Below are positions 1 through 44,995 of a stretch of 64,000 nt of DNA, in pieces. Position 1 is the first letter of the stretch; the number at the start of each line of letters is the position of its first letter. The notes beneath the pieces are model-generated. The model saw only the letters and a program-made list of their open reading frames with translations, had not been told where the DNA came from and did not search any database. The translations under genes and the position numbers were made by a program. Source of the DNA: Bryum argenteum. Lineage: Eukaryota > Streptophyta > Bryopsida > Bryales > Bryaceae. The stretch spans positions 16,272,597 to 16,336,596 of the forward strand of contig CM073324.1 of assembly GCA_037043015.1 (NCBI GenBank). Direction: 5' to 3'.

Positions 1-1955
1 GTGTTGGATCAATGTGCATCCAATGTCCAAAATGTTTGGCATTTCGTTTTAAAAAAAAAAAATACCATTTGTTGTTACAATGGCAAAATTGCCAATGAAC
101 ATGTTAATCACCCAATTGTCCATCCAATGCTCAATGAGCTTTATATGGGCACTACACCTAAATCTCGAGAGTTTATTAAATATATTCAAAGTATAATCAA
201 GCTTTTGCATTTACGAGTATGAGAAGTAAGTTTCAATCTAGCCAAGTTGAAGGAAGAGGGGTATATACTTTTCGTGTAAACGGAGAATTATGCCACCACA
301 TTGGAAATTTACAACCCGATTTAGACCAAGGTGCTAAATTTGCACAAATTTATTTCTTGGATGATGGTTTACAAACGAATCGTCGTATGGAGATTTTTGA
401 TGATCTTCATCGTGATACTCTTAATAACATTCAAGAAGTTTTAGAATCCGTAAATGCATTAGTTCGAGGTTTTAAGTCTTCGGCGTGATGTTCTTCAAAG
501 GGGATCAAACATGGGACTTCGTATCTCTCGGTGAAGTTCCTTCGGGAGACATCCCCGTCGATATAATCGCCAAGTAGTTCCAGAAGTTGCTGCTATTGTT
601 CTTGACGAACAATACATGAATTTAGGTAGAGATATTATTCTTCACCAACACGGTGGAAATTTACTACGAATAAAAGAAATTCACCCAGCGTACGATGCTT
701 TATCCTATCCTTTGTTATTTCCTGAGGGACAATGTGGATGGTCACCGACTTTTAAAGCAAATACTTTGGAGTGACTTTAAAGTCATATGTCCAATATTTG
801 CTTCAAAAGCGGCCGAATCTAATGTACTACATAGGGGTTGTAGATTATTCCAAAGATATGTGGTAGATCAATATTTACGTGTAGAACATGAAAATTTGTT
901 ATTCATTAGACAACATCAAAATGAACTTCGTGCAGAATGCTATCAGGGGATTGTAGATGCTTTGCAGGAGGACAATAGAGCACGCATTGGGCGTCGCATT
1001 GTCTTACCCGCAACATTTATTGGCTCCCCTCGATACATGCAAAAACTTTTTCATGATAGTATGGTTTTGGTTAGAGTTTTAGGAAAACCCGATTTGTTTG
1101 TGACAATGACGTGTAATCCGACTGGCTGAGATTCTTAAGGAGCTTGAACCAGGTCAAAGTCCTCCAGATCGTCCGGATGTTGTTGTACGTGTTTTTGAAC
1201 TTAAATTAAAAACTTTGATGGATGAGATTACCAAGAAGAATGTCATGGGAGAGACAATTGCTTTTTGTTACACTCTTGAGTTTCAAAACGTGGTCTTCCT
1301 CATGCACACATTCTTCTTTGGTTAAAAGACAAGGTCAATGACTGTCACCTTATGGATAGAATAGTATGTCTTTGAGATTCCCGATTTAGATAGACAACCT
1401 CAATTGTATGCATGATTTTGCCAAACATATGATGCATGGACCTTGTGGTTTGGACAATCCCAATTGTCCATGCATGGAAGACAATAGTAGATGTACAAAA
1501 ACTATCCTATGCAAGTTCGAGATACTACCGAGGTAGATGGTGATGGTCATGTTTTATACCGTCGTCGAAACCAAGGTCGATATGTCGAGAAACGTGTACA
1601 TGGACAAATCGTTCGCTTAGACAATCGATGGGTTGTACCATACAATCCATATTTGATAGGTCGATTTAATTGTCACATTAATGTGGAAATTTGTAGTTCG
1701 GTAAAAACAATCAAATACCTCCACAAGTATATTTTTAAAGGTCCGGATCGTGGTATTGTAGAAACAGATGAAGTTGTAGATGAGATTAAAGATTTCTTGG
1801 AAGGTCGTTATGTGGTCGCCCAAGAAGCATGTTGGAGACTTTTTGGTTTTGAAACTAACAATAAGAGTCATAGTATTTGTCGTTTACCCGTTCACCTTCC
1901 CGGTCAACAATATGTTACTTTTGAGGAGGCAACATCTTTGCAAACCGGTGATTGA
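1..1955 (+). pseudogene. Helitron Rep (HUH endonuclease) region, frame-disrupted
   Basis: The Helitron_like_N and Rep regions are recognisable in several frames. About 1-222 carries a segment ending in an NPIVHPMLNELYMG-like stretch, with HPMLNELYMG being visible. About 219-488 carries GRGVYTFRVNGELCHHIGNL. About 695-1129 ends in LFVTMTCNPTG. The HUH motif is in RGLPHAHILLW at about 1287-1321, with the two His codons at 1301-1303 and 1307-1309. The paired catalytic tyrosines are visible as KYLHKY at about 1713-1730. At least three frame changes separate these pieces, and some could hide short introns. The catalytic residues are still readable, but no single open frame joins them. Confidence 0.85.
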
Positions 1956-3994
1956 TCAAAATGCCGAGACTAAACTCACTAAGTTTTTTGAGCTCAATCG
2001 CCACATTCGTGCCTTGATTGCTTCTGGCAATCAAGGCAATCATATGCTTCTTCGTTACATGGATCTTCCACTCCATTACAAGTGGGATGTGAATAAAAAC
2101 ATGTGGGAAAGAAGACTACGTAATATTAAAGTTTTTGGTAGGATAAATATGGTTCCCATGGGTACCGAAGTATTTTACTTACGTTTGTTGTTGACTCATG
2201 TTGAGGCACCAACTTCATTTGATGACCTACTTTGTTTTAATGATATTGTGCATTTAACGTACAAAGCCGCTTGTATTGCAAGAGGACTTTTACATGATGA
2301 TATTGAGTGGGAAAATTGTCTACAAGAGGCAACTCTCATTGCGTTGCCTAAGCAAATTCGGCGGTTGTTTGCAACACTTCTTGTGTTTGGACAACCACTA
2401 GATCCTCTTAGTTTATTAAGGAGTCATCTTGATGCTATGTCTGATGATTGGCGCAATGATCAAAATCGCTATTGCAAAGCGATTTTGTCCATTGAAGAAT
2501 ATTTGTCATCATCAGATAAACATCTTACTGATTTTTTAATATCGAAGAATTGAATGAGTTTGGTTATCCAAACATTGTTGATGTTGGTAGTGATACCAAT
2601 GACAATATTGATTTTGATAACCAAAACATTACTTTTCTAGAAGAGGATGTAGGTAGACTCAACGAAGAACAAAACATTGTTTTTAATGCAAAGACCTCTG
2701 CTTTAAAATTCGATTCTTCAAATAGGCTTTTCTTTTTAGATGGTCCTGGTGGTACAGGTAAGACTTTTTTGTATAACACCATATTAGGTTATCTTCGTGG
2801 TCGTAATGTCAAGTGTATGGCAATGGCAACAAGTGGAATTGCCGCATGCCTTTTGAATGAAGGGCGAACGGCACATTCATCTCTTGCTATTCCTTTACAG
2901 TTGCACAATGCATCAATTTGCAACATTAGTGCCCAATCTACATTAGGTCAAAGCTTACGTCAAGTACAATTGATTGTACTTGATGAAGCTTGTGTTGGAC
3001 ATCGTTTTATGTATGAAGCTATAGATAGATCTTTGCGAGATATACGCGGTATAGACAAATCAAATGGCGGTGTTGTAGTTTTATATGGTGGTGATTTTCG
3101 CCAAACTTTGCCCGTAGTTATGCGTGGAGGTCGCAAAAACAAGCTGAGGGCTTGCTTGCGACATTCATATTTATTTCCACCGATGCAACATTTTCATCGA
3201 CCACTAACATGCGTTTGCAAAGTCAACCGGACTTTCAACGATTTTTGCTAGATATTGGTGAAGGCAAAACCGGTCCAAAGGTAGATTTACCGCCCGAATT
3301 AGTTGCTCCTGGAAATTCTTTAGATGGTCTCATTAATGCTATTTTTGATGATCCGGTTGATTTTTCTGAACGTGTCATTTTGGCTGTTCGAAATGATAAT
3401 GCTCAAGAAATCAACCGAAAAATTACCGATCATTTACCCGGTGATGTGCATCAATGTTTTAGTGCTGACTTTGTTCACGAGAATGATGAACATGCTCATC
3501 ATTATCCCGTAGAGTTTTTGAATTCTTTACAATTGACCCGGTTGCCTCCTCACCAATTAGATCTTAAATGTGGTCAATATTTGATGTTGCTAAGGAACTT
3601 GAATCCGGCAAAAGGTTTGTGCAATGGTAGTCGTTTGCGTCTTTTGCAAGTGTCTTCCAGTGTGTTGTTGTGCGAAATTGTAGAAGGACGCTATCGTAGC
3701 CAAGAGGTGTTGATTCCTAGAATCACCCATCATTGCAATGATAGCCGCTTGCCATTCACACTTTGCCGGAAACAATTTCCTGTCACTGGTGCTTTTGCCA
3801 TGACAATTAACAAATCGCAGGGCCAATCATATGATCGAGTCGGCATTTACCTTCGTAATGAAGTATTTAGCCATGGTCAATTATATGTGGCATTGTCTCG
3901 TGGTAGACATCCTGCAAACATTAAGGTTGCCAATGACAACAATGAAGCCGTGAGAACGGTGAAAAATGTTGTTTATCATGAGGTTTTTACATGA
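1780..3994 (+). pseudogene. Helitron PIF1-like helicase region, frame-disrupted
   Basis: This is the superfamily 1B helicase half of the Helitron protein. Visible motifs are Walker A GPGGTGKT (about 2742-2765), Walker B LIVLDEA (about 2970), GDFRQTLPVV (about 3090) and, in another frame, FAMTINKSQGQSYDRVGIYL followed by LYVALSRGR near the C-terminus (about 3790-3905). The three open segments (about 1780-2553, 2550-3251 and 3152-3994) are in different frames. All helicase motifs remain, which points to moderate rather than extreme age. A host PIF1 gene is unlikely, because the Helitron Rep region lies directly upstream and a Helitron terminus lies directly downstream. Confidence 0.85.
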
Positions 3995-44442: not shown

Positions 44443-44739
44443 GATTAACTTGTATTTACAAATACATACAAATATCTGATTTAGGGTTTCGTTGCATACA
44501 AATCATCCAATCCTATCATGAACTTATTTGAGGAACAAGTAGGTGCTATTCTAATTAAGAAATTATGTACTAATCCAAAAGCATGCACTCAAAAATATAG
44601 ATATGAACCTCTACATGGTCACTTTAGATAAAGTATCATATTTGATCATTTATTTTTGAGTTTTTTGAGTGGAAGTAACAAATTTTGAGAGCTTTGTGGA
44701 AAATTAATATTGATAGTGTTATATTTTTGTGTAATGCAT

Positions 44740-44995
44740 GGAGTAATTAAATGGTGATGCGGTCATACCAAGGCTACTACACCAGATCCCATCAGAACTC
44801 TGAAGTTAAGCGCCTTTGGGCCGGAATAGTACTGGGATGGGTGACCTCCCGGGAAGTCCCGGTGCTGCATCCATTTTAAAATCCAATTTCCCCTTGTCCG
44901 GTGGCCATCGGGATATTAGCATTACGAACGGACACTTCATTCACGCCGGCTCCTTAGAAAGGGACCGGAGTTTCTATCTATCTGGAGTAATTAAA
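44740..44995 (+). mobile_element. 5S rRNA-headed retroposon-like unit (SINE3-type candidate)
   Basis: A 232-base unit (44752-44983) lies between perfect 12-base direct repeats GGAGTAATTAAA (44740-44751 and 44984-44995). It begins two or three bases before a nearly full-length 5S rRNA sequence, continues with about 110 bases of unrelated sequence and ends in TTCTATCTATCT, a simple tail of the kind seen on SINEs. A unit with an internal Pol III promoter at its 5' end, a non-5S body and a flanking direct repeat of this length fits LINE-mediated retroposition. The inference is strong for a single copy, but a family has not been shown. A Cassandra-type LTR fossil also carries 5S sequence, but there the 5S lies inside a TG...CA-bounded LTR, which is not seen here. 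Confidence 0.6.
44755..44873 (+). rRNA. 5S rRNA sequence (isolated copy, probably retroposed)
   Basis: Full-length 5S: starts near TGATGCGGTCATACC, includes CACCAGATCCCATCAGAACT and GAAGTTAAGCGCC (box A region), CTGGGATGGGTGACCTCCC (box C) and closes with GGTGCTGCATCC. The terminal stem (GATGC/GCATC) can pair. TTTT follows at 44874-44877, a possible Pol III terminator, although the direct-repeat evidence suggests that transcripts of the parent read further. There is no second 5S copy in the window, unlike the usual tandem arrays. Confidence 0.85.

Follow-up and report, generated by a model that had tools for sequence, protein, structure and literature searches.

Recurrent 5S rRNA-headed SINE and LINE insertions in the moss Bryum argenteum, probable products of template jumping

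Chimeric retrogenes made by LINEs have been characterized by five features in the sections of PMC2104539 drawn on here; the same text places the truncation sites of such chimeras at random in mammals and at specific positions in the fungus Magnaporthe grisea, where template switches also occur at specific positions and one tripartite case carries 14-bp repeats. For mammals, excerpts of PMC13174262 give 27 5S/LINE-1 insertions, 20 of them with duplications. Among 5S-containing SINEs, the origin passage of PMC3272025 proposes that HaSE3 arose by a template switch from the RNA of a tRNA-derived SINE to 5S rRNA, and a drawing in PMC3234267 shows AmnSINE1 as a 5S promoter, a tRNA region, a Deu-domain, and a tail. 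In plants, SINEs derive from tRNAs, according to part of a review (PMC9033089), and a passage of PMC10886601 speculates that the Cassandra element originated from a SINE3 inserted into an LTR. Among the literature titles and abstract openings listed, we found no plant or bryophyte 5S chimera.

We analyzed a 64,000-nucleotide stretch of the B. argenteum genome (assembly GCA_037043015.1, contig CM073324.1, positions 16,272,597 to 16,336,596, forward strand; here called the window). It contains an insertion, locus L001, bounded by a direct repeat that matches at 12 of 12 positions, or at 13 of 13 if the T before each copy is counted. Between the repeats lie, in order, TG, a 5S rRNA copy, TTTTAAAA (44874-44881), and a 102-base body ending in TTCTATCTATCT (Table 1). 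RF00001 is the sole Rfam match at the gathering score in the window (44755-44873, 109.1 bits, model positions 1 to 120). The duplication scores 13; by chance, 2 of 600 mismatched flank pairs scored ≥11. Thus, the complete 5S head, non-5S body, (ATCT)n tail, and perfect 12-base duplication described in the initial annotation were borne out base for base. The AAAA linker may represent oligo(A) on the 5S RNA, bases added by the reverse transcriptase, or gene flank. In folding comparisons, neither the 5S head nor a 70-base stretch including the hairpin (z = −0.92) was more stable than its shuffles. Elsewhere in the window, overlapping open frames at 674-3994 resemble what is probably a decayed Helitron, with a PIF1-like helicase domain (E = 3.6e-53) in 2532-3248. 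A kinase gene of the window is closest, among named relatives, to Physcomitrium patens (69%) and Ceratodon purpureus (67%), with liverworts near 55%, in keeping with a moss host; for an aminotransferase gene, the best named relatives, a fern (76%) and seed plants (about 75%, with Marchantia at 72%), gave no guide to the host. Entries without a species name reach 95% (kinase) and 98% (aminotransferase).

Table 1. Features of the 5S-headed insertion, in window coordinates
Feature	Position	Strand	Basis
Left target-site duplication GGAGTAATTAAA	44740..44751 (13 bp with T at 44739)	+	Sequence, repeat scoring
Extra bases TG at joint between duplication and 5S 5' end	44752..44753	+	Sequence; probably nontemplated
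Complete 5S rRNA copy	44754..44873	+	Rfam, 109.1 bits; identity over 120 bases to heads of L007, L009, L010, L012, and L019
TTTT, putative 3' U-tract of 5S transcript	44874..44877	+	T3-T5 after other full 5S ends
AAAA, putative linker, varying among loci	44878..44881	+	Locus comparison
SINE 3' 102 bases (positions 255-356 of 356-base SINE)	44882..44983	+	Alignment
Hairpin CCGG..CCGG in SINE 3' domain	44946..44968	+	Putative LINE recognition element
Tail TTCTATCTATCT, common to plain and chimeric SINE copies	44972..44983	+	Sequence comparison
Right target-site duplication GGAGTAATTAAA	44984..44995	+	Sequence, repeat scoring

Searching the assembly (259 Mb, 25 contigs) with the body gave at least 40 matches (40 of 129 candidates were scored). 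About half of the 29 new body loci contain a 356-base SINE that starts with GGCACCACAAGCC and ends in (ATCT)n; the others are 5' truncated. At ≤2 mismatches, a 27-base 3' motif of this SINE occurs 2,380 times genome-wide and a 27-base B-box-like stretch 1,725 times, while the reversed control patterns of both had no match in the genome. The copies that we read mostly lack 5S. The SINE 5' region contains A-box-like and B-box-like stretches. No tRNA was identified in the SINE head by ARAGORN (10 loci) or by Rfam, either at the gathering score (20 loci) or at E ≤ 5 (2 loci), and a scan of 20 of 30 body loci at the Rfam gathering score found no RNA head; we therefore call the SINE tRNA-like by motif only, because the tRNA finders do not recognize its head.

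Plain, 5S-free copies of the SINE start at positions 251-258 in 10 of 42 listed rows, and position 1 is also a frequent start. The copies that start at 251-258 (L035, L041, L046-L049, and L054-L057) mostly carry duplications of their own. This cluster of starts suggests an RNA cut or a strong reverse-transcription stop. At the other extreme, 11 of 14 plain full-length copies with a duplication score of ≥9 carry 1 to 4 mostly A bases at the 5' end (the 14 are 17 rows minus L099, a 5S chimera, and L052 and L004, which have no convincing duplication). The SINE appears scarce on one contig, C1: among the matches listed, there are 18 exact 3' motifs up to 38.6 Mb of C1 versus at least ∼80 in the first 19.3 Mb of C2, and 4 exact B-box-like matches on C1 versus roughly 95 on C2. 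A sex chromosome or a different history is a possible explanation for this scarcity.

To describe the 5S heads, we used a sample of 51 distinct dispersed 5S loci (L001-L030, L088, L089, and L091-L109) with 55 5S segments. Four low-scoring places among the 46 Rfam 5S places (one each on C1 and C3 and two on C6) were left out; the one on C1 is also the sole one of 39 pattern places outside the sample. Most segments are complete: 42 of 55 start at 5S position 1, 41 end at position 120, and seven end at 56-78. Among the 46 segments that reach position 118 or later, T3-T5 comes next in 39, and at least one A follows the T-run, also in 39. Of the seven 5S fragments that lack a U-tract, six are followed by 0 or 1 A and one (L025) by four; although the numbers are small, the paucity of A after these fragments favors the A-run as a feature of the 5S RNA end. 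Some 5'-shortened heads (L092, L094, L102, and L103) align from 75-77, and fragments L089 and L106 end at 75 and 78, respectively. Positions 75-78 may be a 5S cleavage site, albeit one search pattern started at position 75, which biases this comparison.

Six heads (L001, L007, L009, L010, L012, and L019) are 100% identical over 120 bases. Linkage among 5S variants is limited to four pairs found together in 3 or 4 segments, the strongest being 30T with 58T (4 segments). Nearly all full heads begin with GTGATGC; plant 5S rRNAs start with GGATGC or GGGTGC, one base shorter. Searches with the unit, with Rfam 5S (47 of 8,049 candidates scored), and with two 5S patterns yielded dispersed copies only and no canonical 5S array or rDNA unit; the pattern scans gave 21 and 39 places, none in an array. 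A 5S array may be missing from the assembly, may have been masked, or may differ too much from the patterns used, and the same searches of the assembly did not find the working 5S gene of the moss. Because that gene was not found and the GTGATGC start is one base longer than expected, a single 5S-like source gene for all heads is possible. A literature search with the 5S letters of the heads found no paper.

What follows the 5S differs among loci. In 16 of the 51 loci (three of them diverged, at 74 to 86% identity), the 5S is followed by the SINE starting at its 5' end; in 19, by a truncated SINE or a related 3' domain; in five, by a second SINE family; and in one, by a poly(A) LINE. In the remaining 10, no partner was recognized. 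The partner lies in sense orientation in 41 of 51 loci, and none of the 51 has an antisense partner starting within 60 bases. Alignments to the SINE start at 1 or 3 (the 16 loci), 43, 124, 250-276, 293-294, and 324-331; among truncated partners, 10 of 19 start at 250-270 of 356 and the rest at 43, 124, and 274-331, in a sampling that favored the 3' end. Many 5S joints fall at or near start points of plain SINE copies. The second SINE family (L013, L029, L093, L094, and L100) has a 3' domain like GAACGGACACTTTATTCACGCC, similar to that of the first SINE, and its tails include (TTC)n or TTTA-type repeats, among others. In one chimera, L023, a 256-base element whose inverted ends are AACCCCAATTCTGTTAAAATG and CATTTTAACGGAATTGGGGTT splits the SINE part; similar ends are present in L035.

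The linkers vary as well. In L010-L027, the bases between the T-tract and the GGCACC of the partner are AA, AGAAAA, AAATAA, AAAAAA, AAAGAA, AAAAA, AAAA, or AATTAA; L019 has AGGAAAAAATA before GGCACC and lacks a T-tract. Each of the six identical heads has its own combination of partner and linker, a diversity that a single source element would not produce. Two linkers recur: TTTAGAAAA in L012 and L089, and another, of five A, in L023 and L103. Five composites (L006, L025, L089, L099, and L101) contain two 5S pieces, which fits double jumps.

Duplications enclose the 5S and its partner together. Scored around the whole composite, 24 of 50 loci reached ≥10, compared with 4 of 600 mismatched controls; for ≥8, the figures were 30 of 50 and 37 of 600, respectively. 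Some of the weaker duplications (scores of 8 and 9) may be due to chance. L099, with a 5' flank of <20 bases, was left out of this test, and L009 and L023 lie beyond the 480 bases that the test reaches. An earlier run on 30 loci, with a 700-base reach, gave scores of ≥8 in 21 of 30 loci versus 11 of 119 control pairs. After adding L009 and L023 (from the 30-locus run) and L099 (by eye), 18 of 51 loci have no duplication, several of which are diverged or have no recognized partner. In loci with a duplication, 0 to 3 extra bases separate it from the 5S. Two separate, side-by-side insertions were considered and ruled out because the duplications enclose the whole composite.

The LINE-containing composite, L009, consists of 5S, TTTAAAAA, and the 5'-truncated 3' end of a poly(A) LINE within a 16/16 duplication. 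With L009 counted, five copies of this LINE show 100% identity (rounded) across 620 or more of 671 bases. Pfam found no domain in the short LINE piece and a zf-RVT domain in a longer copy (30.4 bits; cutoff, 27.5). Members of this zf-RVT family lie at C3:25497887, C3:27022191, C10:3735977, C9:8027870, and C5:11713498. The family looks recently active, as judged from several copies that appear identical (rounded) over hundreds of bases and have different 5' truncations.

The anatomy is composite, duplications enclose the entire composite in many loci, partners and junctions vary, and the recognized partners share the sense orientation. We interpret these observations as very probably the outcome of bipartite retro-insertion by template jumping, recurrent in this moss and with two or more SINE families and one or more poly(A)-tailed LINEs as donors. 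At the window locus, a LINE reverse transcriptase would begin at a nicked target with the 3' end of a SINE RNA as template and would halt near SINE position 255, a frequent 5' end of the sampled SINE copies. The enzyme would then jump to the 3' end of a 5S rRNA and copy to its 5' end, and the joined cDNA would be inserted with a 12-base target-site duplication. More generally, on reaching an RNA end or a stop, the reverse transcriptase would either finish or jump onto the 3' end of 5S RNA. The acceptor 5S RNA would end in U3-U5, in many cases with a short A-run; a U3-U5 end fits the end of a Pol III transcript. We infer the jump itself, the order of copying, and the independence of the events.

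The initial annotation had raised the idea of a plant SINE3-type family. In its full form, this reading has a 5S-headed master spreading by its own 5S promoter, with the 3' parts later lost or exchanged. The loci do have the SINE3 features of a 5S-derived 5' head, a LINE-type tail, and target-site duplications, and the heads are flush at the same 5' base and near-identical in several loci. In addition, L001, L002, L003, and L006 join the SINE within 4 bases of one another (at 255, 257, 258, and 258, respectively), and the linker common to L012 and L089 is not a homopolymer. However, the 100% identical heads stand before different partners and linkers, including the LINE and the related SINE, and the bodies vary: L001 has the variant GGCTCC and L002 and L003 have GGCCCC, both of which are also present in plain copies. 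The one consensus across many copies that marks SINE3 was not found: partners, junctions, and linkers differ, with weak tree support on the question of a common origin.

That tree was part of a comparison of 28 full-length SINE parts, 12 chimeric and 16 plain, in which L095 was relabeled by hand from plain to chimera. L031, L053, L090, and L061-L087, which repeat other loci, were left out, as were copies starting after SINE position 4 or ending before position 350. Nearest neighbors had the same label in 14 of 28 cases (shuffled mean, 13.8; p = 0.55), and the tree required 8 label changes versus a shuffled mean of 9.4 (128 of 500 shuffles were as low). Joint support stays below the threshold for every branch, and in formal terms the tree is also compatible with a single origin. 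Thus, in a weak tree, the SINE parts of chimeras do not cluster apart from plain copies. L012 and L089 are a possible re-amplified pair. Besides their linker, they share one substitution seen in no other row; on the other side, their SINE parts, which differ at 18 of 357 sites, do not group, and one or more exclusive substitutions are common to the members of 20 of 378 pairs. A single 5S-SINE master was rejected, based on the differing partners, junctions, and linkers together with the SINE parts being intermixed in the weak tree. We therefore regard a true SINE3 family as unlikely: what stands of the proposal is retroposition of a 5S-containing unit in a land plant, but the same head occurs on different partners, at different positions, and with different linkers, rather than in a single family.

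Alternatively, 5S RNA could have been ligated to SINE RNA, and the finished chimeric RNA then reverse transcribed and retroposed in the normal way. The anatomy would be the same as that from template jumping, so ligation is compatible with what can be read from sequence alone, and excerpts of PMC13174262 name RNA ligation as an alternative for U6/LINE-1 chimeras. The double-5S composites and the A-rich bases at the joints, however, fit run-off and jump more simply, and 1 to 4 mostly A bases are also present at the 5' ends of 11 of the 14 plain full-length copies described above; we consider ligation very unlikely. There is next to no chance that L001 is a one-off retroposed read-through 5S transcript with 5S spacer as its body, as the initial annotation also suggested: the 5' position of the 5S, the tail, and the duplication would suit it, but the body belongs to an abundant SINE, whose 3' end it forms and whose copies, where read, mostly lack 5S, and joints of this kind were found at dozens of loci. 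A Cassandra-type LTR setting was rejected for the 30 loci L001-L030 with 1.5-kb flanks, in which none of the 5S copies falls within direct repeats of ≥80 bases; L025 was the one locus among them reported to have a further 5S piece of ≥30 bases, right next to the first.

Returning to template jumping, we tentatively extend it, with confidence a little short of an even balance, to a view of the genome as a standing nursery of newborn 5S-headed SINEs. LINE machinery would keep jumping onto 5S precursors with U3-U5 ends and short oligo(A), in ∼1 to 2% of SINE insertions; none of the products would have become a clear family, because in most of them the 5S terminator would still separate the promoter from the body. 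For the rate, we set the 35 SINE chimeras (16 + 19) against the 2,380 copies of the 3' motif at ≤2 mismatches; it is an order of magnitude only, because the 35 include diverged or related elements that the motif misses. A retained T-tract should stop Pol III before it reaches the SINE part; since T3-T5 follows 39 of the 46 full 5S ends, this would explain why no clear 5S-SINE family has grown. It also offers a testable prediction on why 5S chimeras rarely become families. If the extended view is true, one plant genome preserves repeated instances of the step by which 5S SINEs are assumed to be founded, a step also suggested for Cassandra. Accounts of how SINEs acquire a new Pol III promoter usually work backward from finished families. 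The moss loci present many 5S-SINE joints, apparently of the first generation, at single-base resolution; double jumps are among them, and the donors include SINEs as well as a LINE.

As for known systems, the moss chimeras share four of the five chimeric-retrogene features given in the sections of PMC2104539 cited above: a full-length cellular RNA as the 5' part, though not every 5S segment is complete; a 5'-truncated 3' part, mostly a SINE here, where the listed feature is mostly a LINE; the same orientation of both parts; and direct repeats flanking the whole chimera. The M. grisea chimeras of that text (WEIRD RNA, Mg-SINE, and MGL LINE) are alike in joining a cellular RNA in sense orientation to a SINE or LINE, with duplications, but in the moss the acceptor is 5S rRNA and the donor is mostly a full-length or truncated SINE. 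The mammalian U6/LINE-1 and 5S/LINE-1 chimeras are, as excerpted from PMC13174262, also single-event bipartite insertions with duplications; their 5S is typically antisense and truncated, whereas the moss 5S is in sense orientation and mostly complete, and its donor is usually a SINE. HaSE3 of Helicoverpa armigera and AmnSINE1 likewise have a 5S region ahead of SINE-type sequence, but the passages cited describe them as one-consensus families, in contrast to the many different joints and no clear family of the moss, and the donor of HaSE3 is given there as tRNA derived, whereas the moss SINE is tRNA-like by motif. The Cassandra TRIM also has a 5S sequence in a plant retroelement, yet inside its LTRs, while the moss 5S is the 5' end of non-LTR insertions (30 loci); the moss loci show a direct route for 5S uptake by a plant retroelement. 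Going by the portions of the literature cited here, a mechanism already described in mammals and a fungus, and put forward as the origin of an insect 5S SINE, appears in a host and form that we did not find described, with 5S rRNA as the sense, mostly complete head of SINE and LINE insertions in a moss.
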